This document shows positions 42,076 through 56,022 of a DNA stretch of 64,000 bases, piece by piece. The stretch lies in IMG/VR virus record IMGVR_UViG_3300017971_000218, positions 49,547-113,546 of that record; one strand, 5' to 3'. The position numbers were made by a program, and so were the translations under genes. Positions within the stretch are counted from its first letter, which is position 1, and each line of letters begins with the position of its first letter. The DNA comes from a virus. The notes under the pieces were generated by a model, which was not told where the DNA came from, made no database searches, and saw only the letters and a list, made by a program, of their open reading frames with translations.

Positions 42076-44505
42076 TTATTTCTTCAAAGAGCTTCTACAA
42101 ATCGCCCAAGCAGAACTTAGAAGCTCCTTGCGCTTCTTGCCAGTCGGTGCCTTGCCATTCTTCTTCCGGAATGACGCCACCTTCTGCTTGAATACGTCCT
42201 GCACACATCTGTCGAGTTTAGCAGGTGCCTGAGTGAAGAACGATTCGACATAAGACTGCGTGATTCTCGCACCAAACTTAGTATTACCAAGAATCTGCTC
42301 AGTCATACGCCAAATTTGCTTCCGCACCTCCGGTCGCAAGTCAGCAACTCGGTCCGTGTCGGCTGCAACAAGTGCCCTTCGCATCAAGCACCCGAGAATC
42401 TTGTTGACCAGTCGCCTGCCCTCTGTGCGATACTTCAGGTATTTACCCTTATTGATCCGGATCTTCTGGGACATACCCTTCGGCTTAGTATCACGCTTGA
42501 CAGACTGCGGCTTCTCCGTGCCAGTCGGACGACCACGCTGTCCAGGACCTTGTGGGTTATCCCCAGGCGGGTTGAGCTTCTTCTGAACCTCCCCCATCTT
42601 TTCGGTCTTCTGGACCTCGCGCTCTGTCTGCTCCTCGTTGGACGGTAGAACGCCATCCTCGTCTTCGCGCATCCTCTCTTCCGTGACCTTGGTGTCGATC
42701 TCGTCCTTGAACGGACCCTTGAGCGGCGGTAGCTCACCCTTCTTGATGAGATCCTGCTCATGGTTGACCTCTGCGTTCTCGACGTCGGCGTCAAGGTTCG
42801 CATACTCAAGGAGAGTACGACGAGAGATCACGTTCATCTGAGTCAACTTGACCATGAAGTCGTTCATGACTCGCGGGTCACGTAGTGAGGTAACCTCGAA
42901 GCGAATAGAGGGAACCTTGTTATCTCCAACGGCGCGGGATAGTAGCATCAACTCATGCGTCACCCAGCGGCGCAAGTGCTCGCGGATGGTCTCAAGTCGC
43001 TCAAGCATGGCGGCAACACTCAGGAAAGCGTTGCTGTAGTTTCCGCCACCACGACCGTTGACCACTACCTCAGAAGCACCAAGGTCAGCCAGAATGTCAG
43101 CATCGACACCGGCAGTCTTATCCTTATTGAAGATCTGAGATAGATCCGGCTGCACATACTCCATCTCGATATCGGGCGTCGCCCAAATCAAGTGGCTAGA
43201 TTCCGCAGCAGCCGCGATCAGGTCGGCAACGTCGTCTACAACACCGGTCGGAGGACCAATGATCTCGCCAGTCTTCGGATCGACGTAACCCAACTTCACT
43301 AGTAACAGAGAAGCAATGAAGGATTCGGCTGCACGTGCTTCCATCGCACGTAGAAGTTCCTTGATCTTCAGGTTTTTCAGTGCCGGATACACCATCGGTA
43401 CCGCCCACTGCTCCCAATCGAACTTCTTGTCGTAGATGACGTATAGGCGCTCGTTCGGGATGTCAACCTCGCTGTCGTAGTCACCGAACGGAGACTCTGC
43501 CTTCTTGATCCGCTTGCCGAACTCCTCCGGCATATTCTCGCGGGTCTCGCCCTCGTCAATGTATCCACGATAACGGTTCGGAGAGGTGGACGTGTTGCTT
43601 CCACCCTTACCCCGGTCTCCGTCTAGATCTCTTCCGATGTTACCGAGCTTGTCTAGGTCATCAGAGCGGATTAGGAACTTGAATTGCTGCTGACCCTTCA
43701 CGACACCACCGGTCGGCTCGATCTGGAGCGGGTTGAGCGAAGTATAAGACCACGGCACCGTGTTCTTCTTGACGCGCTTGGTCTTACCTGTGAAGTCCTC
43801 ACCCAATCCACGAATCTGCGGACTAATGACTCCGGACTCATCTCCGTAGTCAACTAGTAGCTCATTGCCGACGATCGTGTAAGTAGGCTCCTTGACCGGA
43901 GCGTTCTCCGCAACAGCCCGACGCATTAGGCGACGCTGCTCCTGCGTGATGGTAGCCATTGAACGGAAAATGAACGCCTGCCCACCCACGAGGATGTCGC
44001 GGGTAAATGTGCTGAGGCGCTCGTTTAGTTGAACTTTAGCAGCCCAGGAGCGATAGAACCGACGCCACTGAGGGTCCGGGTGGGTGATATGCAGCTTCGA
44101 GATGAAGTTGGACATCAAGTCTACCACAGTACGGACCATACCATAGTTGCGATATGCAATCCGGCACGCCGCAATGATATCATGGTTGACACGTGCGATC
44201 AGAGAACGGCGATGGAACTTGAAGCGATCCTTGTCGTCAAGTTCATTTTGAACACTCTTCCGGCGAGTGATAAAAGCATTCTCGTATGTGTCTTCCTCTA
44301 GAAACGGGGTACGGGAGATCCTGGCACCAGGATGCTGGTCGCCCAGGTAAGCCCGCGACATACGGGAATTACGCAGTTCGTTGAGATCGACCCCAGCTAG
44401 TCTAGCGTTAGCAGCCAAACCCCGCTCGATCGCATCTTCATATTTCGCACTTGCATGAGTGCGCTTGCGCGCATTGGCGCGACTTTTATTTCTTTTTCTT
44501 GACAT
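42076..44505 (-). CDS. Portal protein
   Basis: The 809-residue protein follows the large terminase and precedes the head protease. This order, the length and a wing-like N-terminal half (RTVVDLMSNFISKL, YVDPKTGEIIGPPTGVVDD, NAFLSVAAMLERLETIREHL) fit a portal of large tailed phages. The C-terminal 200 residues are basic with EQTEREVQKTEKMGEVQKKL, perhaps a DNA-contact barrel. It has a TTTATCGTATA motif 22 bp before the start. Confidence 0.88.
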   Translation of the reverse strand: MSRKRNKSRANARKRTHASAKYEDAIERGLAANARLAGVDLNELRNSRMSRAYLGDQHPGARISRTPFLEEDTYENAFITRRKSVQNELDDKDRFKFHRRSLIARVNHDIIAACRIAYRNYGMVRTVVDLMSNFISKLHITHPDPQWRRFYRSWAAKVQLNERLSTFTRDILVGGQAFIFRSMATITQEQRRLMRRAVAENAPVKEPTYTIVGNELLVDYGDESGVISPQIRGLGEDFTGKTKRVKKNTVPWSYTSLNPLQIEPTGGVVKGQQQFKFLIRSDDLDKLGNIGRDLDGDRGKGGSNTSTSPNRYRGYIDEGETRENMPEEFGKRIKKAESPFGDYDSEVDIPNERLYVIYDKKFDWEQWAVPMVYPALKNLKIKELLRAMEARAAESFIASLLLVKLGYVDPKTGEIIGPPTGVVDDVADLIAAAAESSHLIWATPDIEMEYVQPDLSQIFNKDKTAGVDADILADLGASEVVVNGRGGGNYSNAFLSVAAMLERLETIREHLRRWVTHELMLLSRAVGDNKVPSIRFEVTSLRDPRVMNDFMVKLTQMNVISRRTLLEYANLDADVENAEVNHEQDLIKKGELPPLKGPFKDEIDTKVTEERMREDEDGVLPSNEEQTEREVQKTEKMGEVQKKLNPPGDNPQGPGQRGRPTGTEKPQSVKRDTKPKGMSQKIRINKGKYLKYRTEGRRLVNKILGCLMRRALVAADTDRVADLRPEVRKQIWRMTEQILGNTKFGARITQSYVESFFTQAPAKLDRCVQDVFKQKVASFRKKNGKAPTGKKRKELLSSAWAICRSSLKK

Positions 44506-44539: not shown

Positions 44540-46645
44540 CTACGATCTGGGGCGTCTAGATCTCATTTTTTTGTAATGATCGCTATAATCCACGATCCTC
44601 ATCGAACCCTGCTTGCTAACCCTGTGTGAACCGCGCTGGCGATGGGCTCCCGGACGTCCGGCAACAGCACCCTCAGACGGAATAGATGAACTTGAACGAC
44701 CCAGCGACATCTCAATACGCGCCGCCTGGGAGGCTAGTAACAGAGCAGTGTAACGGTCTCGGTGGCGAACATCATCCGCCGCGTCCGAGGTCGAGATCTT
44801 GGGCAGGTCATACTTCACAGACTGAGACCCCGGGATACCCTGCTGCTCGATGGCACAGGTCTCCAGAATCGTCTCATCGATATGCTTCATGACGCCATCC
44901 TCGATCACGTCTCCTTCGTCGTTTTCCTCTCCCAAAAATTCATCATTCAAGCGGTTTAGAATATCAGAGGACTCAGAGGACCACTGACCATTCGCACCCC
45001 GAGTGAAGATCTCACCAGGAACCTTACGTATAGCCCTGGCATACTGATTCATGAGCACCTCGTCAGAGTTGACTAGGCTCGGCAGGGGGAACATTAGGCG
45101 CTTGTGCTCAATGTCGGACTTCATGGCGTTGATCGCCTCGTCCACCCATTGATTGCTGAAGTTCTGCACCTGAAGAATCTTGCGCCCATAAGGCTTATGG
45201 CGCGACTCAAGGTCGTCCATATCGAAGATCATGTCTTCCTTCTTGGAGATGTGATTCGGATCCTTCAACATATCCTTCACGTGAATACCACCACCGGCGT
45301 TATCCATCAAGATCCGCACGATGTTGAACCGCTTGGTCAGGTCAACGATGTGGGGTACGATCTTGGTGAACTCGCGGCGGTAGAACGACTTGGCATAAAC
45401 AAGCTGGGAGGAAGAGCCACGCAGCTTCAAGATGACGATGCCGAAGTAGTCCTTCAAACGAGCGGGGTCAATACCCATAACATAGCGGGCTCCAGGCTCG
45501 CCGTATAGCTCGGGAACAATCTGCTCCTCGCCGATGGGGCTTGACTCCTTGATGAGCCCGTAAGGAATAAAACCTCCGGTGTCGTCAGGAAACTGGCACT
45601 CGTACTCTTGGCGGAAACGAGCGCGTGTGAACATTAGTCGGTTACGAGCCACCATCGCATCGTCTAGATAGCCCTCTGGCATGGAAGTATACGGAACCTG
45701 GTAAACAGAATAATCTCTCCAGGTGCGGCATACTGACTCGATGATCTCATCCGGGATGGCATCCGCCGTACCCTGCGCAGTTTGACCCATCGCCTTGCGG
45801 ATGATTCGACCGTCGCCCTTGCTATTGATGATGTCTTTGTACTGGAGGTAGTAGCGGTAGAAGTGGTTGAACTGCGAAGAAGCGGTACCAGAAATAACCA
45901 TCTGGTTGCCCCTTCCCTGTAGCTTCAACATCTTGTTGATTAGATCATCTGGTGCTCCTAAAGACTCAAGGCGCTTCAGAAACTTATTCATAGCCGCACG
46001 CTTCTGCGGGTTCTTATGAACTGACAGGAACGGGGTGATGACGATCTCTAGCACTTCCTCATTAACAGAAGCAAACTCGTCTACGAGGAGTGTCGTCGCA
46101 CGCTGACCACGGATGCTCTCGCCGTCGCCGATCGGAAGTGCAATGATCTTAGAGAGCCCGATGTACATTTCATACCGGTCACTACCGTGAGAAATGGCAT
46201 CCTTCCGTTTCGTATTAAACCTCTTTAGGCTCTTGTCTACAAGCTCTTTGATCAAGGGGGAGTTGTTGTAGAGTTTCTCGACGTACTCAAACACCTTCTT
46301 GGACTGACGGAACGCTTTACCAACGATCAGGATTTCCTCACCGGGCACTAGGATGGCGCGGAGCAAAGCGTATACCCCCAGCATGAAGGTCTTACCAGCA
46401 CCACGACATGCCAGAATCATGGGGAACTTCTTATTCCACAGAAGCTCTAGCATCACGCTCTGGAATGGCATAAGGATGAGCGGATCACCCGTGCCGTCAG
46501 GCGCACACATTAGTAGGCGGACCAGCCATGATAGGTTGGTGCGCCCTAGCTTGACGATCGCCTCCAGCGGCGTGTCTGCTGTGTGAAAGATGCTCTCGAT
46601 ATCATCGGCGTTAAGACCGGTGGTACCAGGTACCCAGAGGGTCAT
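44540..46645 (-). CDS. Terminase large subunit
   Basis: The 701-residue protein has the ATPase motor with Walker A LACRGAGKTF (Lys85) and Walker B TTLLVDEFASV (Asp189, Glu190), and coupling motif VISGTASS. The RNase H-like nuclease domain starts at VMGIDPARLKDYFG (Asp393) and includes ILMDNAGGG. A long charged tail with a Ser/Arg-rich end closes it. It pumps DNA into the prohead through the adjacent portal. Start ATG 46645 overlaps the stop of the previous small gene (ATGA). Confidence 0.96.
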   Translation of the reverse strand: MTLWVPGTTGLNADDIESIFHTADTPLEAIVKLGRTNLSWLVRLLMCAPDGTGDPLILMPFQSVMLELLWNKKFPMILACRGAGKTFMLGVYALLRAILVPGEEILIVGKAFRQSKKVFEYVEKLYNNSPLIKELVDKSLKRFNTKRKDAISHGSDRYEMYIGLSKIIALPIGDGESIRGQRATTLLVDEFASVNEEVLEIVITPFLSVHKNPQKRAAMNKFLKRLESLGAPDDLINKMLKLQGRGNQMVISGTASSQFNHFYRYYLQYKDIINSKGDGRIIRKAMGQTAQGTADAIPDEIIESVCRTWRDYSVYQVPYTSMPEGYLDDAMVARNRLMFTRARFRQEYECQFPDDTGGFIPYGLIKESSPIGEEQIVPELYGEPGARYVMGIDPARLKDYFGIVILKLRGSSSQLVYAKSFYRREFTKIVPHIVDLTKRFNIVRILMDNAGGGIHVKDMLKDPNHISKKEDMIFDMDDLESRHKPYGRKILQVQNFSNQWVDEAINAMKSDIEHKRLMFPLPSLVNSDEVLMNQYARAIRKVPGEIFTRGANGQWSSESSDILNRLNDEFLGEENDEGDVIEDGVMKHIDETILETCAIEQQGIPGSQSVKYDLPKISTSDAADDVRHRDRYTALLLASQAARIEMSLGRSSSSIPSEGAVAGRPGAHRQRGSHRVSKQGSMRIVDYSDHYKKMRSRRPRS

Positions 46646-50850: not shown

Positions 50851-50926
50851 TGGAGCGTCCACTCGGAATCGCACCGAGACCCACTGGTTGGAAGCCAGTG
50901 ATGCTACTGTTAAACACCACGGACGC
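50851..50926 (-). tRNA. tRNA-Gly(TCC)
   Basis: The acceptor GCGTCCG pairs with TGGACGC, followed by T73 and an encoded CCA. Anticodon arm ACTGG-CTTCCAA-CCAGT gives TCC. T-loop is TGCGATT (G55) and D-loop carries AG in place of GG. Confidence 0.93.
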
Positions 50927-50933
50927 TAATGAG

Positions 50934-51006
50934 AGCATCTACCGGGACTTGAACCCGAACCTCGACGTTGGCAACGTCGTGTGCTACCGTTGAACACCAT
51001 AGACGC
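50934..51006 (-). tRNA. tRNA-Gly(GCC)
   Basis: Acceptor GCGTCTA/TAGATGC, anticodon arm CGACG-TTGCCAA-CGTCG (GCC), T-loop TTCAAGT with GG in the D-loop. T73; CCA not encoded. Confidence 0.93.
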
Positions 51007-51008
51007 AG

Positions 51009-51146
51009 TTAATCAAGCCAGTCTTCAATCTTTGCCCATAGGCGGTCAAACCAGTTGGGCTGAGGATAATGAAATTCAAAATACTCCGCAGCATAGTACT
51101 TAGCTGGGTCTATCTTGGGCTGCGGGATATCTTTCTCTAAGATCAT
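51009..51146 (-). CDS. 45-residue hypothetical protein between tRNAs
   Basis: From ATG 51146 a frame of 45 residues begins MILEKDIPQPKIDPAKYY and ends in NWFDRLWAKIEDWLD. The C-terminus is amphipathic and Trp-rich. An AGG lies upstream of the start. It fills the only gap between tRNA-Gly and tRNA-Trp, and protein-like composition supports a real gene. No function is known. Confidence 0.55.
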   Translation of the reverse strand: MILEKDIPQPKIDPAKYYAAEYFEFHYPQPNWFDRLWAKIEDWLD

Positions 51147-51166
51147 ATTTCTAACCTAAAAGGTTA

Positions 51167-51240
51167 TGGCAGGGCGACAAGGAATCGAACCTTGAGCCGC
51201 GGTTTTGGAAACCGCCATGTTACCATTACACCATCACCCT
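51167..51240 (-). tRNA. tRNA-Trp(CCA)
   Basis: Acceptor AGGGTGA/TCGCCCT, anticodon arm GCGGT-TTCCAAA-ACCGC (CCA), G73 and encoded CCA. T-loop TTCGATT with GG in the D-loop. Confidence 0.93.
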
Positions 51241-51241
51241 A

Positions 51242-51319
51242 TGGGTCACAGAGAGGGACTCGCACCCTCAACCTTCGCATTCACAGTGCGATACTCTAAC
51301 TAGTTGAGCTATCTGTGAC
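51242..51319 (-). tRNA. tRNA-His(GTG) with encoded G-1
   Basis: Anticodon arm TCGCA-CTGTGAA-TGCGA gives GTG. G-1 is encoded and faces C73, followed by encoded CCA. T-loop TGCGAGT (G55) with A18-G19 in the D-loop. Confidence 0.93.
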
Positions 51320-51325
51320 ATCGAG

Positions 51326-51397
51326 CGCCGGATCGAGGACTTGCACCCCGCTCTCATGCTTACAAGGCGCGTATTCTACTTGATGAACTAATCCGGC
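51326..51397 (-). tRNA. tRNA-Thr(TGT)
   Basis: Acceptor GCCGGAT/ATCCGGC, loop CTTGTAA gives TGT. One C-A mismatch is in the anticodon stem. T-loop TGCAAGT (G55), AG in the D-loop. G73; CCA not encoded. Confidence 0.85.
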
Positions 51398-51405
51398 ATA
51401 TATTA

Positions 51406-51480
51406 TGGCGGTCCTACGGAGACTTGCACTCCGTGCTCAGGATCGACAGTCCTGTATGTTACTCGTTACACCATAAGACC
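51406..51480 (-). tRNA. tRNA-Asp(GTC)
   Basis: Anticodon arm CAGGA-CTGTCGA-TCCTG gives GTC. G73 and encoded CCA. T-loop TGCAAGT (G55) with A18-G19 in the D-loop. Confidence 0.93.
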
Positions 51481-51592
51481 GATTGGAAGCGGTTTCTACG
51501 GTGAGTGGCTCCACATAGACTCACATACCTAGTCATATGCCTAGCTAGCGGTAAGCTTATCGAGTCTGACCGTTTCCACGGCTTCCGTGTTA
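51481..51592 (-). ncRNA. Putative structured RNA in the tRNA cluster
   Basis: This 112-base gap between tRNA-Asp and tRNA-Pro has no reading frame but strong pairing. GGAAGC near one end pairs with GCTTCC at the other, ACGGT pairs with ACCGT inside it, and AGACTC with GAGTCT encloses a central loop. GTGAGT-n12-ACTCAC is an alternative helix. It is not a cloverleaf. T4-like phages carry stable RNAs of unknown function in their tRNA clusters, which makes a co-transcribed small RNA plausible. Confidence 0.5.
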
Positions 51593-51663
51593 TCGGGAAT
51601 GAAAGAATCGAACTTTCGCCCCGTGGTCCCAAACCACGTATGCTACCATTATACCAATTCCCG
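51593..51663 (-). tRNA. tRNA-Pro(TGG)
   Basis: Acceptor CGGGAAT/ATTCCCG, anticodon arm CGTGG-TTTGGGA-CCACG gives TGG. T-loop TTCGATT, D-loop GG. A73; CCA not encoded. Confidence 0.93.
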
Positions 51664-51667
51664 TTTA

Positions 51668-51739
51668 TACCCCTGGGTGGAATCGAACCACCACTTTCTG
51701 CTTGTAAGGCAGATACCCTAGCCGTTAGATCACAGGGGT
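51668..51739 (-). tRNA. tRNA-Val(TAC)
   Basis: Acceptor ACCCCTG/CAGGGGT, anticodon arm TCTGC-CTTACAA-GCAGA gives TAC. T-loop TTCGATT, D-loop GG. A73; CCA not encoded. Confidence 0.93.
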
Positions 51740-51740
51740 G

Positions 51741-51816
51741 TGGTACCCCCGGAGAGATTCGAACTCCCATCCTCTGGTTCGTAGCCAGAGATCCTGATCC
51801 GTTAGACGACAGGGGC
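51741..51816 (-). tRNA. tRNA-Arg(ACG)
   Basis: Anticodon arm TCTGG-CTACGAA-CCAGA gives ACG. Encoded CCA follows A73. T-loop TTCGAAT, D-loop GG. Confidence 0.92.
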
Positions 51817-51822
51817 ACATAG

Positions 51823-52011
51823 TTACTTCTTGAAAGCCTTGAGCCACATGATGGACTCTTCCAGCTTTGTGATCGCCAACGCGACCTCGCGGTGGCTTGG
51901 AAGGCGCTTCATAGCCTCAAGCTGAACCTTCAGTTCTCCAATGATTGCGTCCATGATACTTTCTCCATAATATGGATTGCCTGGAATATTCGAACCATGA
52001 GTTTGAGACAT
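51823..52011 (-). CDS. Acb2-like cyclic-nucleotide sponge (anti-CBASS candidate)
   Basis: The 62-residue protein starts MSQTHGSNIPGNPYYG at ATG 52011, with GGGAGAAGAAA upstream. Its last 40 residues include LPSHREVALAITKLEESIMW, a good match to the conserved REx-A-x-TKLEEa-x-W core of Acb2/Vs.4-type proteins (DUF7681). These small hexamers bind cyclic di- and trinucleotides and block CBASS and some Thoeris defence. It sits inside the tRNA cluster, a common place for accessory genes. Assignment rests on the core motif and length. Confidence 0.75.
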   Translation of the reverse strand: MSQTHGSNIPGNPYYGESIMDAIIGELKVQLEAMKRLPSHREVALAITKLEESIMWLKAFKK

Positions 52012-52037
52012 TTTCTTCTCCCGACAAAGTCGGTTAG

Positions 52038-52119
52038 AGCCCCGGGTCAGAATCGAACTGACGATAGCTTGCGCCAGCGGGGTTGCAACCCGCTCCCTTA
52101 CCACTCGGGTCACCAGGGC
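52038..52119 (-). tRNA. tRNA-Cys(GCA) with extended variable arm
   Basis: Acceptor GCCCTGG/CCGGGGC, anticodon arm GCGGG-TTGCAAC-CCCGC gives GCA; T73, the cysteine identity base. The variable region is 14 bases with TGGC-GCAA-GCTA able to pair. CCA not encoded. T-loop TTCGATT. Confidence 0.8.
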
Positions 52120-52122
52120 GGA

Positions 52123-52213
52123 TGGAGGAGGCTGAGAGATTCGAACTCTCACAACGACTCTCGCCGCCTTGCCTGGGTTCGAGCCAGGTGTCCTACCGTT
52201 AGACTAAGCCTCC
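52123..52213 (-). tRNA. tRNA-Ser(CGA)
   Basis: Acceptor GGAGGCT/AGCCTCC, anticodon arm CCTGG-CTCGAAC-CCAGG gives CGA. Long variable arm as in class II tRNAs. T73 is odd for serine. Encoded CCA. Confidence 0.82.
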
Positions 52214-52218
52214 CAAAG

Positions 52219-52305
52219 AGGAAGGTGAGGGACTCGAACCCACAGGACCGTGAAGTCTACCCGAGTAGCAATCGGGCGCAGCTAACCAATATCTGCCTAC
52301 CTTCC
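52219..52305 (-). tRNA. tRNA-Ser(GCT)
   Basis: Acceptor GGAAGGT/ACCTTCC, anticodon arm CCCGA-TTGCTAC-TCGGG gives GCT. Long variable arm. T73; CCA not encoded. Confidence 0.88.
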
Positions 52306-52346
52306 ACGTTGACTGGATGATCGACAACTACAACTGTAAAACATTT

Positions 52347-52556
52347 CTATAGCTTTCTTGTATAATCCCTCTTAGCATCGTCGCCAAGAATACGCGCACC
52401 ATCATCGCTAATGTGCGTCTTAAGAGTGCCGTCAGTATGCGGGCGATGTTGATCGATCCAAGCCGTTACTGACTCTACGGATTCATGTCGTGTACACAGC
52501 GACTCACCGCAGGGGCACTCGTATGTACACCAGTCTAAATCCATGATACACTTCAT
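52347..52556 (-). CDS. Small cysteine-rich hypothetical protein
   Basis: The 69-residue protein begins MKCIMDLDWCTYECPCGES at ATG 52556 (GGAG upstream). Cys10, Cys14, Cys16 and Cys21, in a CxxxCxCxxxxC cluster, may bind zinc. It lies between two tRNA-Ser genes. The family is not recognised. Confidence 0.55.
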   Translation of the reverse strand: MKCIMDLDWCTYECPCGESLCTRHESVESVTAWIDQHRPHTDGTLKTHISDDGARILGDDAKRDYTRKL

Positions 52557-52589
52557 ACTAGTCTCCACGGCGTTAGCCGGTATTCTGAG

Positions 52590-52676
52590 CAGAGGCGGTG
52601 GGACTCGAACCCACGAAGGCTTTTAGACCCCTACCCGGCTTCCAACCGGGTCCCTTAGCCGCTCGGTCACGCCTCT
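52590..52676 (-). tRNA. tRNA-Ser(GGA)
   Basis: Acceptor AGAGGCG/CGCCTCT, anticodon arm CCCGG-TTGGAAG-CCGGG gives GGA. Class II variable arm, G73, no encoded CCA. Confidence 0.93.
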
Positions 52677-52683
52677 ATTGTTC

Positions 52684-52760
52684 TGGTAGACCCAGCAGGA
52701 CTTGCACCTGCAATCTTCGGATTCAGAGTCCGACGTGTTAGCTAATTCCACTATGGGTCT
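52684..52760 (-). tRNA. tRNA-Gln(CTG)
   Basis: Acceptor AGACCCA/TGGGTCT, anticodon arm TCGGA-CTCTGAA-TCCGA gives CTG. A73 and encoded CCA. T-loop TGCAAGT (G55), AG in the D-loop. Confidence 0.92.
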
Positions 52761-52908
52761 ATTTCTTTCGATCACGTAGCATCCAGAATACCCAAGCGAA
52801 AAGTGCCAAGGCACCCACAAGAATAACAACCGACACCCACGGAGGAAACTCGTAGTTGCTCTGTAGGAGTTGGTCGATAACGGGATGTCCGCTTCTTGCA
52901 CCACTCAT
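52759..52908 (-). CDS. 49-residue single-pass membrane peptide
   Basis: The frame from ATG 52908 encodes MSGARSGHPVIDQLLQ, then a hydrophobic segment VSVVILVGALALFAWVFW and a basic end RDRKK. It touches the 5' end of tRNA-Gln. A 27-residue frame ends just before it and could couple translation, since its own ribosome site is poor. Possibly a small holin-like or membrane effector. Confidence 0.5.
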   Translation of the reverse strand: MSGARSGHPVIDQLLQSNYEFPPWVSVVILVGALALFAWVFWMLRDRKK

Positions 52909-53012
52909 ACTACGCAGTCTTAATGCCGTCCCGTATTACCAGGGCGGCGGTAATATTAGCAAAGGTAATTCGGCTCATCATTGTATCACACATTGTTGTC
53001 TCTTTTCTGTTT

Positions 53013-53089
53013 TGGCTCACCCGACGGGATTCGAACCCGTGACCCTCCGGTTAACAGCCGGTGACTCTAGACCACTGAGCTACGGATGA
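53013..53089 (-). tRNA. tRNA-Asn(GTT), copy 1
   Basis: Acceptor TCATCCG/CGGGTGA, G73 and encoded CCA. Loop CTGTTAA gives GTT. T-loop TTCGAAT with GG in the D-loop. Confidence 0.88.
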
Positions 53090-53097
53090 GATCTGTC

Positions 53098-53172
53098 TGG
53101 CTCAAGCGGGTGGACTTGCACCACCGACCCTCCGGGTAACAGCCGGGCGCTCTGCTGCTGAGCTACGCTTGA
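53098..53172 (-). tRNA. tRNA-Asn(GTT), copy 2 with altered elbow
   Basis: Acceptor TCAAGCG/CGCTTGA, G73, encoded CCA. Loop CTGTTAC gives GTT. T-loop TGCAAGT (G55) with A18-G19, unlike copy 1. Confidence 0.88.
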
Positions 53173-53178
53173 ATTGTC

Positions 53179-53255
53179 TGGTCGGATCTCAAGGATTTGC
53201 ACCTTGTCTTCCACGTTATCAGCGTGGCGTGCGGAACTGCCTACACCAAGATCCG
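53179..53255 (-). tRNA. tRNA-Ile(GAT)
   Basis: Acceptor CGGATCT/AGATCCG, anticodon arm CCACG-CTGATAA-CGTGG gives GAT. A73, encoded CCA. T-loop TGCAAAT (G55). Confidence 0.92.
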
Positions 53256-53256
53256 T

Positions 53257-53331
53257 TGGTGGCGCTGTCCGGAATTGCACCGGCGACTCGCGGTCTTCAG
53301 CCGCGTGCTTTACTAATTAAGCTACAGCGCC
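53257..53331 (-). tRNA. tRNA-Phe(GAA)
   Basis: Acceptor GGCGCTG/CAGCGCC, anticodon arm CGCGG-CTGAAGA-CCGCG gives GAA. A73, encoded CCA. T-loop TGCAATT (G55), AG in the D-loop. Confidence 0.93.
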
Positions 53332-53392
53332 GTTGTATTAAAGGGCAAAGAGGAAACTAGTAAGTGACGTCCCTCGCTAGCCTCACCGCGAC

Positions 53393-53464
53393 AGTTGATA
53401 GGTGGATTCGAACCACTTCCCCGGGCATGACCCGGTGCTTTTTCCAGTTAAGCTACTTACCAAC
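53393..53464 (-). tRNA. tRNA with CAT anticodon (Met or Ile2), irregular acceptor
   Basis: Loop GTCATGC gives CAT. GTTGGTA pairs with TATCAAC, but four bases rather than two then precede the D-stem, so the acceptor region carries an insertion. T-loop TTCGAAT, D-loop GG. CCA not encoded. Met versus lysidine-Ile cannot be decided. Confidence 0.65.
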
Positions 53465-53478
53465 CTGCGTCCCTTTTA

Positions 53479-53554
53479 TACCCCAAGGGGGATTTGAACC
53501 CACCATGTCTCCGCCTTGAGAGGGCGGCGTGTTAGCCGATTACACCATTGGGGC
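53479..53554 (-). tRNA. tRNA-Glu(CTC)
   Basis: Acceptor GCCCCAA/TTGGGGT, anticodon arm CCGCC-CTCTCAA-GGCGG gives CTC. T-loop TTCAAAT with one mismatch in its stem. CCA not encoded. Confidence 0.85.
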
Positions 53555-53565
53555 GTCAAACTTCT

Positions 53566-54042
53566 TCACTGAATCGTTACCAAGCGCGGGTAAGACAACC
53601 ACTTCGGTGCCTCCGGCGGTGCCGGATAACCCCACTTGTAATACTCTACGTAAACTTGTACGCACCATTGGGTCCCCCTCAAGCCGGGGTGAATCGTCCC
53701 CTTAAAGAGAGAAAACTCCAGGATGCGAGCCGGGTATTTCAGCTTCAGCCACCGCTGCTGCATCCACATCGTATGATACGGGATGTGGAGAACGCCGATT
53801 CCCGGGAACGCCTGAACGTACTGCTTCTGATACTTGCCGACGAGGAAGATCACCCGCGACGGTGCTGGAGAGCTATACTCGACCAGCGTTGCCTTGACGT
53901 CGGTGGGTCTTCCTGCTACCGCGCCCGTTACAAACAGTTGCGGTCGATACTTGCTTGGATACCAATAGAGATCCTGCGCTGCGGCGCTAGTCGCCAGCAG
54001 TAGAAGAATCAGGATCAAGGATCTTACGAATGTCCTCTTCAT
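53566..54042 (-). CDS. Exported protein with signal peptide
   Basis: The 158-residue protein has a classic signal peptide: MKRTFVRSLILILLLLATSA with cleavage near AAAQD at residue 22. The mature part is about 135 residues and aromatic (YWYPSKYRPQLF, VYVEYYKWGYPAP). It is probably periplasmic or envelope-associated and may affect superinfection or lysis. It overlaps the 48-residue upstream frame by 56 bp. Confidence 0.65.
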   Translation of the reverse strand: MKRTFVRSLILILLLLATSAAAQDLYWYPSKYRPQLFVTGAVAGRPTDVKATLVEYSSPAPSRVIFLVGKYQKQYVQAFPGIGVLHIPYHTMWMQQRWLKLKYPARILEFSLFKGTIHPGLRGTQWCVQVYVEYYKWGYPAPPEAPKWLSYPRLVTIQ

Positions 54043-54133
54043 TGAGAATTATCGCCTTCCCTGGCTCCTCGTTAGAGGCGAGTCTAAGCGCCTCTGCAAG
54101 AAGCTTTTCCGCCTGTTCCTTAGTCAACTTCAT
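53987..54133 (-). CDS. 48-residue helical protein
   Basis: Read from ATG 54133 (GGAGTAGGC upstream), the product begins MKLTKEQAEKLLAEALRLAS and ends DPDSSTAGD. It is acidic and helical. A longer frame upstream runs through tRNA-Ala and is not a gene. Function is unknown. Confidence 0.55.
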   Translation of the reverse strand: MKLTKEQAEKLLAEALRLASNEEPGKAIILNEEDIRKILDPDSSTAGD

Positions 54134-54145
54134 GCCTACTCCATA

Positions 54146-54219
54146 TGGACCGACTGGGAATCGAACCCAGATCTCCGCCGTGCAAAGGCGGCGTGTTAAG
54201 CCGTTGTCACCATCAGCCC
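54146..54219 (-). tRNA. tRNA-Ala(TGC)
   Basis: Acceptor GGGCTGA/TCGGTCC, anticodon arm CCGCC-TTTGCAC-GGCGG gives TGC. T-loop TTCGATT, D-loop GG. A73; CCA not encoded. Confidence 0.92.
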
Positions 54220-54225
54220 GTGTGA

Positions 54226-54298
54226 TACCCGGGGTGGGAGTCGAACCCACAAAATCTGGTTCCTAAGACCAGCGCCTATTCCATTCGGCTACCCGGGC
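54226..54298 (-). tRNA. tRNA with TAG anticodon (Leu), short variable loop
   Basis: Acceptor GCCCGGG/CCCGGGT, anticodon arm CTGGT-CTTAGGA-ACCAG gives TAG (Leu CUA). Variable loop only ATTTT, whereas bacterial tRNA-Leu has a long arm. CCA not encoded. Confidence 0.82.
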
Positions 54299-54303
54299 GT
54301 CTA

Positions 54304-54377
54304 TAGGCTCGGTGAGATTCGAACTCACACTATCCCGGATTTGAGCCGGGTCTCTCTTCCTGTTGGAGTACGAGCCC
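54304..54377 (-). tRNA. tRNA with CAA anticodon (Leu), short variable loop
   Basis: Acceptor GGGCTCG/CGAGCCT, anticodon arm CCCGG-CTCAAAT-CCGGG gives CAA (Leu UUG). Variable loop ATAGT only. T-loop TTCGAAT. CCA not encoded. Confidence 0.82.
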
Positions 54378-54386
54378 AAATTATTT

Positions 54387-54465
54387 TGGTAGGACAGACG
54401 AGAATCGAACTCGACATTGACAGTGGCTTATAAGACCACCCAGGACAACCAGCCCTTTCTGTCCT
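54387..54465 (-). tRNA. tRNA-Ile(TAT)
   Basis: Acceptor AGGACAG/CTGTCCT, anticodon arm GTGGT-CTTATAA-GCCAC gives TAT, which reads AUA directly. A73, encoded CCA. Slightly long (79 bases). Confidence 0.85.
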
Positions 54466-54859
54466 ATAGTTCTACCTCATATGCCGCATACTTGTTCTCG
54501 ATCGCCAGGGTGGTTTTCCCAGCCACCTCATCCTTGGGGATCATGAACATCCTATCTTCGGTCGTAACGACAAATAGGTAGTCGCATGATACTTGGTCAA
54601 ACGTCTTGTGTATCCGCTTCTTTGTAGTTCCGGTCATGGTCTTTAGGCTGACTTCGCTAACGCCATTTGGACGCTTGTACGTTGTAGTCTTTACCTGGAC
54701 CCTAACAAGAGCCCCGCCGAGATCAGCGATTAAGTCGTAATCTTGACTATCAGTCAGCGGGATAGAAACCGTATATCCGTGTCTCGTGAAATAGGCGATA
54801 GCCATGCTCATGCCAACATCGCCACGCTTTTGTGTACTATCTAGTTCCGACCAGTGCAT
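54464..54859 (-). CDS. PD-(D/E)XK endonuclease of the intron-homing type (PF11645-like)
   Basis: The 131-residue protein has KRGDVGMSMAIAYFTRHGY, then DYDLIADLGGALVRVQVKTTT. The Asp of YDLI and the V-Q-V-K element match the PD-(D/E)XK core of I-Ssp6803I-type endonucleases. These cut intron-less tRNA genes or similar targets to spread. It lies between tRNA-Ile and tRNA-Tyr without a visible intron, so it is probably free-standing. Confidence 0.75.
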   Translation of the reverse strand: MHWSELDSTQKRGDVGMSMAIAYFTRHGYTVSIPLTDSQDYDLIADLGGALVRVQVKTTTYKRPNGVSEVSLKTMTGTTKKRIHKTFDQVSCDYLFVVTTEDRMFMIPKDEVAGKTTLAIENKYAAYEVEL

Positions 54860-54876
54860 GTTTGTCTCTCACCTTA

Positions 54877-54957
54877 TGGCGCGACCTGGACTCGAACCAG
54901 GGAGGTCATAGACGCCCGGTTTACAGCCGGGTGCATTCGCCGCTCTGCCACCGCGCC
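54877..54957 (-). tRNA. tRNA-Tyr(GTA)
   Basis: Acceptor GGCGCGG/TCGCGCC, anticodon arm CCCGG-CTGTAAA-CCGGG gives GTA. Variable arm of class II type, A73, CCA not encoded. Confidence 0.93.
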
Positions 54958-54959
54958 TT

Positions 54960-55034
54960 TGGTACTCCCGCCAGGATTTGCACCCGGACCTCAACGCTTA
55001 GGAGGCGAGTATGCGTCTATTACACCACGGGAGT
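54960..55034 (-). tRNA. tRNA-Arg(CCT)
   Basis: Acceptor ACTCCCG/CGGGAGT, loop CTCCTAA gives CCT. Anticodon stem has only three good pairs. T-loop TGCAAAT (G55), AG in the D-loop. A73, encoded CCA. Confidence 0.8.
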
Positions 55035-55035
55035 T

Positions 55036-55112
55036 TGGTACCCCCGGTAGGATTCGAACCCACACTTCATCGGTTAAAAGCCGAGTATGCTTGTCCATTA
55101 CATTACGGAGGC
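55036..55112 (-). tRNA. tRNA-Lys(TTT)
   Basis: Acceptor GCCTCCG/CGGGGGT, loop CTTTTAA gives TTT. T-loop TTCGAAT, D-loop GG. A73, encoded CCA. Confidence 0.9.
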
Positions 55113-55115
55113 ACT

Positions 55116-55193
55116 TGGTACCCCCGCTAGGATTCGCACCTAGATCTCACCGGGTAAGAGCCGGGTATGTTAAACTGTTGACACCACGGAGGC
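55116..55193 (-). tRNA. tRNA-Lys(CTT)
   Basis: Acceptor GCCTCCG/CGGGGGT, loop CTCTTAC gives CTT. T-loop TGCGAAT (G55), A18-G19 in the D-loop, unlike the adjacent tRNA-Lys(TTT). Encoded CCA. Confidence 0.9.
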
Positions 55194-55230
55194 ACATATA
55201 GTCTATGCTAGCCCCCGCCACGGAGGGCTA

Positions 55231-55602
55231 TCAGTCCGGTTTATACCTATACTTTCTCATGTCTGATAGCTTCCTTGGAAAACCCTTTAACACCTGAAAT
55301 TGCTCTTCGACGCAACGCCTGCTCAACGACATCGAGCCGCCGCTCAGGAACATGACGTCCAAATTGTAGTTGGGCGTAAACCCGGTCCAGCCGTACGTGT
55401 CGCTGATGCTGATGACGATACACAGATCGCCGGGCTCAGCATACACGCGTTCTTTCTTGTCAACCAAGCCCGTCAGCGTGACCTGCTTGGTACACTGGAG
55501 CATCATGCCTGCGTGGTGCTGCGGAATGGGCAACACTCCGGAGCACATGAATGCCTTGGGCTCGGTGTCGCGGTCCCTAACCACCCACTGACTGTCTGTC
55601 AT
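55231..55602 (-). CDS. Hypothetical protein
   Basis: The 123-residue protein starts MTDSQWVVRDRDTEPKAF at ATG 55602 and has a mixed fold with cysteines at CSGVL, QCTKQV and RRCVEEQ. GDLCIVISISDTYGW suggests a beta-barrel. Ends RKYRYKPD. It lies between tRNA-Lys(CTT) and the second structured RNA. Family is unknown. Confidence 0.55.
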   Translation of the reverse strand: MTDSQWVVRDRDTEPKAFMCSGVLPIPQHHAGMMLQCTKQVTLTGLVDKKERVYAEPGDLCIVISISDTYGWTGFTPNYNLDVMFLSGGSMSLSRRCVEEQFQVLKGFPRKLSDMRKYRYKPD

Positions 55603-55639
55603 TCCTGTTTCCCTTAAAACGTCCGCAGTACGGGGTCCC

Positions 55640-55800
55640 ACCTAACCGTATCCTGCCAAGAGCCGCGCATAAGTATCTTGACAGCCCGCTTGAGAGATCT
55701 GGACCTCAAGGTAGTTTGGTCCAGCCAATGGTTATCTCTACAAGCCCATCAATTCGTGCTACCTTTCACGCTGCGGTCCTCCGTCTCTCGACGGTGGTGT
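55640..55800 (-). ncRNA. Second putative structured RNA in the tRNA cluster
   Basis: This 160-base gap lacks a gene and can form a long hairpin: GCTTG plus AGAGAT pair with ATCTCT plus CAAGC, with one bulged base. Inside, TGGACC pairs with GGTCCA over a 12-base loop. Upstream on the same strand a 5-bp hairpin with GAGA loop (55781-55794) and CGTG-n8-CACG are also present. The regularity of stems suggests a stable small RNA co-transcribed with the tRNAs. Confidence 0.5.
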
Positions 55801-55802
55801 TT

Positions 55803-55886
55803 TGGTAGCGGCGGTGGGAATCAAACCCACAATGCCCTACGGCGAGTGCTTATGAGACACCCTGCATTACCAAATGCTTCGCCGCT
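55803..55886 (-). tRNA. tRNA with CAT anticodon and a long variable arm
   Basis: Acceptor AGCGGCG/CGCCGCT, loop CTCATAA gives CAT. Variable region of about 14 bases with GCC-GTAG-GGC pairing, a class II layout. T-loop TTTGATT. A73, encoded CCA. Charged with Met or, if modified, another amino acid. Confidence 0.72.
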
Positions 55887-55950
55887 ATTTATCCCGGGGT
55901 GAGTAAAGACAAAACCGGCGGTACCACCATGTTATGCCACCAGAATATCG

Positions 55951-56022
55951 AGATACGGACGGGATTCGAACCCGCAACGCCCGAGTCTGAGTCGGGTATA
56001 TTACCAGTTATACTACCGCCCT
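55951..56022 (-). tRNA. tRNA with CAG anticodon (Leu), weak acceptor stem
   Basis: Anticodon arm CCCGA-CTCAGAC-TCGGG gives CAG (Leu CUG). Short variable loop. Only about four acceptor pairs form (CGG/CCG plus wobble), so it may be damaged. T-loop TTCGAAT. CCA not encoded. Confidence 0.6.

Follow-up and report, generated by a model that had tools for sequence, protein, structure and literature searches.

Textbooks treat U55, a uridine converted to pseudouridine in almost every tRNA, and the contact that it makes with G18 as invariant features of tRNA structure. As the elbow is described in excerpts of two structural papers, residue 18 is inserted between residues 57 and 58 and contacts residue 55, with purine 57 lying between the 18-55 and 19-56 pairs (PMC4810234, PMC7912444). 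A bacterial departure is described in an excerpt on a non-proteinogenic tRNA-Gly of Staphylococcus aureus, in which the GG at positions 18-19 is changed to UU or CU, and which binds EF-Tu weakly and serves cell-wall supply (PMC4052509). Dense tRNA arrays form a second point of reference: one in Mycobacterium avium, redundant with the chromosomal tRNAs, is considered putatively antidefence in an excerpt of PMC12803027. Here we describe an array of 30 tRNA genes in the IMG/VR virus record IMGVR_UViG_3300017971_000218, obtained from an environmental sample, ten of which have A18 and G55 (swapped) in place of G18 and U55 (canonical); the window analysed comprises the final 64,000 bases of this 113,546-base record. 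Judging from the sequences, we consider it probable that in these ten tRNAs an A18-G55 pair replaces the G18-U55 tertiary pair and forms an alternative elbow.

All 30 tRNAs called by ARAGORN in the window lie on the minus strand between positions 50851 and 56022, and none was found elsewhere in the virus record. With 30 tRNAs in 5.2 kb, serving most amino acids, the array can be classed as a tRNA array unit. In the parsed ARAGORN structures the T-loop has TGC in 10 of the 30 tRNAs and TTC or TTT in the other 20; positions 18-19 read AG in 10/10 of the former and GG in 20/20 of the latter (Fisher p = 3.3e-8, a value that ignores relatedness). The gathering score of Rfam RF00005 is passed by 28 tRNAs, including all ten swapped ones (the two below it, Ser-GCT and Ile-TAT, are canonical), and in the Rfam alignments, which cover 23 of the 30 tRNAs and again all ten swapped, the model's GG reads AG and its UUC reads UGC in 10/10 cases. 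The same division into ten and twenty had been read from the letters in an earlier note on this DNA, and is borne out by both the ARAGORN structures and the Rfam alignments; the note had allowed that the changed bases might lie elsewhere, but in the covariance-model alignment they fall at positions 18 and 55. Its span of 50851-55193 for the 30 tRNAs holds for 28 of them, the other two, canonical at 18 and 55, lying outside it at 55803-56022. Also as it had stated, the Gly, Asn, Lys, Arg and Ile isoacceptor pairs contain one elbow of each kind. Every window tRNA for Ser (3), Leu (3) and Met (2) has the canonical G18 and U55. One tRNA-Met, at 53393-53464, has a low score (32.5 bits) and irregular stems, and may be degenerate.

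G19, U54, C56, A58 and the seven-base T-loop are retained in 10/10 swapped tRNAs of the window, and their stem pairs are largely intact. As these four bases and almost all of the stem pairing are unchanged, the tRNAs should still be able to fold into the L-shape with A18 (D-loop) and G55 (T-loop) standing in for G18 and U55. Like G18, A18 would slot in between purine 57 and A58, and it would make a purine-purine contact with G55. Purine 57 is itself linked with the swap, being A in 7/10 swapped versus 2/20 canonical tRNAs of the window (p = 0.0017).

The exchange was looked for in 2.9 million viral contigs, by means of a tRNA pattern with one fixed D-stem, and with the same A18/G55 pattern in 84,980 bacterial and archaeal genomes. 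In the viral contigs A18/G55 was found in at least 120 stretches, and G18/U55 likewise in at least 120; the complete scans for the two mixed combinations, whose patterns differ slightly, gave 2 stretches with G18/G55 and 20 with A18/U55 in unambiguous register. A broader A18/U55 scan was not used as evidence, as AGG loops match its pattern; among the loci brought in by it only, one or two swapped tRNAs are present in 9/114. C or U at 18 accompanies G55 in 5 viral stretches, two of which are also readable as G18. Loci L488 and L490 contain rare tRNAs in which C18 is combined with G55, perhaps as a third form of the 18-55 pair. In the cellular genomes A18/G55 was found in at least 116 stretches, many of them from Patescibacteria, in addition to Elusimicrobia, Verrucomicrobia, Chloroflexi and others.

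To reduce selection we counted, within the loci found by the scans, only distinct tRNAs that match no scan pattern. These comprise 98 A18/G55, 1 clear G18/G55, at most 12 A18/U55 and 1313 G18/U55 tRNAs in the viral set, and 67, 0, 0 and 202, respectively, in the cellular set; as the loci were chosen for holding a scan-matching tRNA, the counts express association and not population frequencies. The figure of 12 for A18/U55 is a maximum, since it comes from a crude D-loop classifier that scores AGG loops as canonical; five of the eight tRNAs first scored as G18/G55 contain AGG, equally readable as A18/G19. These counts exclude three classes: AGG loops, whose register is ambiguous (U55 accompanies 155 of them in the viral and 16 in the cellular set, G55 one in each); D-loops that contain neither AG nor GG, of which 5 viral and 4 cellular ones go with G55; and T-loops other than TNC. 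Overall, a clear A18 accompanies G55 in 98/105 viral and 67/72 cellular non-scan tRNAs. Because positions 18 and 55 change together in these tRNAs, A18/G55 is, on the comparative evidence, a covarying substitute for the 18-55 tertiary pair that is not peculiar to the window phage, and it seems to be a functioning alternative to an elbow feature usually called invariant. The linked, compensated exchange of G18-U55 for A18-G55 proposed in the earlier note thus receives strong support from independent viral and cellular sequences, the search of other phage genomes having found the pair in many uncultured phages. A57 is again commoner with the swap (viral, 86/173 versus 437/1763; cellular, 136/176 versus 79/248), perhaps through stacking against A18: this rise fits a changed stack, with a contribution from shared ancestry. 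Since G18/G55 is rarer than A18/U55, the path of switching probably runs from G18 to A first and then from U55 to G, by way of A18/U55.

Uncultured phages have the swap in their tRNA arrays; on the cellular side it recurs in arrays on contigs of bacteria and, often as tRNA-Met, in lone tRNAs of Patescibacteria. Among the matches listed, 119 viral A18/G55-scan loci have called tRNAs; a single swapped tRNA occurs in 101 of these loci and at least two in 17, and a swapped tRNA is present in 1/120 viral G18/U55-scan loci. Two viral arrays are almost fully switched: L108, with G55 in 27/27 tRNAs (A18 is clear in 25), and L081, with 9/11. Other viral arrays with G55 in all or most tRNAs are L100 (13/14), L053 (5/5) and L022 (7/7), and these five arrays together are the best material on whether whole arrays switch. 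In the 25 viral and cellular loci with at least three swapped tRNAs, 0/16 serine tRNAs are swapped versus 160/305 of the others (p = 2e-5); there are two serine exceptions, a swapped tRNA-Ser(TGA) in L050 and a tRNA-Ser(GCT) in L448 with G55 and an ambiguous AGG loop, so that one is outside the 25 loci and the other ambiguous.

Cellular genomes present two settings, arrays with several swapped tRNAs and loci with exactly one; the latter account for 82 of the 113 cellular loci with called tRNAs among the matches listed, in which the commonest lone swaps are Met (39), Ile(GAT) (10), Phe (10) and Arg(CCT) (9). Lone swapped tRNAs are present also in Endomicrobia, and an A18/G55 tRNA-His was found in two Alphaproteobacteria, HIMB114 and a Pelagibacteraceae genome (L399, L450). 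With the seed genome included in each count, the A18/G55 pattern occurs in 9/192 sampled Patescibacteria genomes, in 13/334 genomes of one Patescibacteria class, and in 1/150 Pseudomonadota genomes, this one being the seed genome itself. One of 14 tRNAs on a Mycobacterium alsense contig is swapped, with an AGG loop of ambiguous reading. Regions of seven cultured phages, picked by similarity to swapped tRNAs or to the window, contain no swapped tRNA among 78. Contig-name prefixes that we take to be marks of isolate genomes, scored by eye among the matches listed, appear in 1/120 entries of the A18/G55 scan versus 15/120 of the G18/U55 scan (p = 0.0003).

This distribution bears on how the swap arose. 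Redundant copies in mobile arrays and the tRNAs of tiny, fast-evolving genomes might cross a shallow valley by chance, the two pairs being equivalent and neither of them selected. The scatter of swaps inside arrays, the existence of A18/U55 intermediates and the frequency of Patescibacteria, which have small genomes, among the cellular matches listed are all consistent with such neutral drift, but the almost wholly converted arrays, the absence of swapped tRNAs from the cultured phage regions, and the scarcity of swapped serine tRNAs, which points to an isotype-dependent constraint, are not what it would predict. We regard drift as a real though tentative possibility.

According to the earlier note the swapped tRNAs could also form a distinct lineage, which would then have spread through phages. 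Encoded CCA, present in 9/10 swapped versus 9/20 canonical tRNAs of the window (p = 0.024), could be taken as a sign of common descent. However, similarity within the ten swapped tRNAs is not significantly above expectation (permutation p = 0.15), and within the window the nearest tRNA to the swapped Lys(CTT) is the canonical Lys(TTT) (identity 0.83 over the compared positions), just as the swapped second Asn is nearest to the canonical first Asn (0.72). For Gly, Asp, Gln and the second Asn of the window, the nearest relatives among the fetched loci are canonical and have the same anticodon. A single swapped lineage is disfavoured by these similarity tests and seems to us very improbable.

Some of the observations in this paragraph and the next weigh against a sound elbow adopted many times over or against its connection with host modification. 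In a comparison of 2344 tRNAs (351 swapped and 1993 canonical), 171 of the 351 swapped tRNAs have a swapped tRNA as their nearest relative in another locus and 180 have a canonical one, and for 146 of the 351 that nearest relative is swapped and has the same anticodon, which agrees with a separate lineage and, as we read these comparisons, means that part of the recurrence of the swap is inheritance. Because the nearest relatives split 171/180 while canonical tRNAs are far more numerous, the sequences indicate many separate switches, plus clades that retain the swap. Among the matches listed, tRNA-Arg(TCT) alone contributes 76 of the 206 swapped tRNAs in A18/G55-scan loci; these represent 33 distinct sequences, and many of the copies are near-identical. 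Two Patescibacteria tRNA-Asp genes (L397:4293-4367 and L463:766-841) are identical at 54 compared positions, one having A18/G55 and the other G18/U55, and differ further, by eye, in a matching 15-48 change, at 57, and in one inserted D-loop base; they make a natural test pair, in which A57 accompanies U55, opposite to the trend. Some stems are slightly weaker in swapped tRNAs: the anticodon stem has 4.50 versus 4.85 of 5 pairs in the window and 4.66 versus 4.89 in the cellular set, and the acceptor stem has 6.23 versus 6.59 of 7 in the viral set and 6.57 versus 6.69 in the cellular set. Some swapped tRNAs may therefore be decaying. That the swapped tRNAs as a class are pseudogenes is nevertheless hardly credible, as in the window all ten swapped acceptor stems are fully paired (7.00 of 7, versus 6.70 in canonical tRNAs), T-stems have 4.90 of 5 pairs (versus 4.80), and random decay would not alter two distant bases jointly.

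With regard to modification, TruB acts, in an excerpt of PMC6850298, on uridine 55 in a T-arm with U54, C56 and A58; the ten swapped tRNAs of the window have U54, C56 and A58 and lack the uridine, having G55. On their sequences, A18/G55 tRNAs cannot carry pseudouridine-55 or 2'-O-methyl-G18 (Gm18), and since bases 18 and 55 preclude them, the swapped elbow must be independent of these host modifications. No TruB match was found in the virus record, which may be a fragment. TruB is present in 17 of 40 swap-carrying genomes (chosen from the 116 loci listed). In the Patescibacteria sample TruB is present in 1/9 genomes with the pattern versus 124/183 without it (p = 0.001, or 0.003 minus the seed genome), but within one class the proportions are 4/13 with the swap versus 15/72 without (p = 0.47; the 72 were sampled from 321 genomes without the pattern), all such absences being soft, as genome completeness is not given. 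Because the difference vanishes within the class, class membership explains the phylum-level result, and a link between the swap and loss of TruB was rejected: the test supports nothing beyond the use of the swap by a TruB-poor class. As a separate observation, TruB went undetected in most sampled genomes of this class, that of genome G012, versus a presence of 125/192 in the phylum sample.

As to what drives the swap, our preferred reading, weakly held and still doubtful, is that elements that make tRNA fast, or in a host that is changing, would gain from, or lose nothing by, an elbow that is free of TruB and TrmH. We rate this independence from modification about equally with neutral drift, and escape from host enzymes lower. 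Escape, also suggested in the earlier note, would mean that the altered elbow conceals phage tRNAs from some host enzyme recognising U55 or G18 (a tRNA-cleaving defence nuclease or a toxin, for instance), with mixed arrays as a form of bet-hedging. It would suit the isoacceptor pairs that hold both kinds of elbow, including the two tRNA-Asn(GTT), as well as the nearly fully switched arrays L108 and L081, and there are reports of phage tRNAs that evade tRNA-targeting defences (titles cited in the excerpt of PMC12803027). A phage-specific form of escape is challenged by the same pair in lone tRNAs of Patescibacteria, Endomicrobia, HIMB114 and the Pelagibacteraceae genome; two thirds of the window array are canonical, and no elbow-reading nuclease was identified, no search having been aimed at one. 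We consider escape unlikely. A broader proposal, that A18-G55 is an encoded modification-free elbow adopted by phages and mobile arrays one isotype at a time, and sometimes array-wide, for both independence from and invisibility to elbow-reading host enzymes, would be somewhat less improbable than escape, though we would not expect it to hold.

Table 1. Positions of the tRNA array, its swapped tRNAs, two canonical partners and adjoining genes in the window.
Feature	Position	Strand	Remarks
whole tRNA array	50851..56022	-	30 tRNAs: 10 swapped and 20 canonical; interspersed open reading frames
tRNA-Gly(TCC)	50851..50926	-	A18 at 50908, G55 at 50872
tRNA-His(GTG)	51242..51318	-	A18 at 51301, G55 at 51263
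tRNA-Thr(TGT)	51325..51397	-	A18 at 51380, G55 at 51344
tRNA-Asp(GTC)	51406..51480	-	A18 at 51463, G55 at 51427
tRNA-Gln(CTG)	52684..52760	-	A18 at 52743, G55 at 52705
tRNA-Asn(GTT), first copy	53013..53089	-	canonical G18/U55; anticodon shared with the swapped copy
tRNA-Asn(GTT), second copy	53098..53172	-	A18 at 53156, G55 at 53119
tRNA-Ile(GAT)	53179..53255	-	A18 at 53238, G55 at 53200
tRNA-Phe(GAA)	53257..53331	-	A18 at 53314, G55 at 53278
tRNA-Arg(CCT)	54960..55034	-	A18 at 55018, G55 at 54981
tRNA-Lys(TTT)	55036..55112	-	canonical G18/U55
tRNA-Lys(CTT)	55116..55193	-	A18 at 55176, G55 at 55137
portal-like protein	42076-44505		beside the tRNA array
terminase	44540-46645		beside the tRNA array

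Because terminase and portal-like genes adjoin the array (Table 1), the window virus is taken to be a tailed phage. No close relative of it was found among named phages: it has no megablast match to them, a terminase among them has about 25% identity across 70%, and partial DNA matches to them are short (at most 3% of the query) and mostly at tRNA genes (25 matches listed); plasmids give partial matches only. A close viral relative (L476), with 71-79% DNA identity in the longer pieces, stops short of the array, so that orthologous tRNAs are not comparable, and three more distant viral relatives have 0, 0 and 5 tRNAs in the stretch covered, with G55 in 0/5. Within the array, on the minus strand at 54464-54859, lies a gene for a PD-(D/E)XK endonuclease-like protein of 131 residues (PF11645, E = 6e-23), perhaps a homing-type element. 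For one protein encoded inside the array no relatives were found.

A natural double substitution at 18 and 55 offers ready-made molecules for testing the roles of pseudouridine-55, TruB and Gm18, and bears also on whether the ribosome and EF-Tu need the exact pair and on why serine tRNAs rarely switch. It calls for caution with programs that assume a fixed U55 when they find tRNA genes or predict modifications. The swap marks uncultured phages and is not shown by the few cultured phages examined. No description of the A18/G55 pair was found in the open-licence papers searched, and it may well have been mentioned before, most of all in structural studies of tRNA loops; suppressor tRNAs with altered contacts between the D- and T-loops have reportedly been studied.

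These results can be compared with the systems introduced above. The window resembles known tRNA array units, as found in mobile elements and in phages, in its dense array (PMC12803027, PMC5966550, PMC6409571), but the excerpt of PMC12803027 does not mention an elbow swap, and the text of PMC6409571 names neither the T-loop nor the D-loop. Like the phage tRNAs that evade tRNA-targeting defences, the window tRNAs have a sequence change in phage-encoded tRNAs; in the partial accounts available one reported change is in the anticodon loop, whereas here it is at the elbow. The tRNA-Gly of S. aureus shares with the swapped tRNAs a deviation from GG at 18-19 in a bacterial setting (excerpt of PMC4052509), but the ten read AG and not UU or CU, keep G19 with only 18 altered, and span ten isotypes. 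To the canonical elbow with G18-pseudouridine-55 and G19-C56, as given in the excerpts of PMC4810234 and PMC7912444, the ten tRNAs are alike in U54, C56, A58, G19, the seven-base T-loop and the covariation of D- and T-loops; they differ in having A18-G55 for G18-U55, with which neither pseudouridine-55 nor Gm18 is possible.

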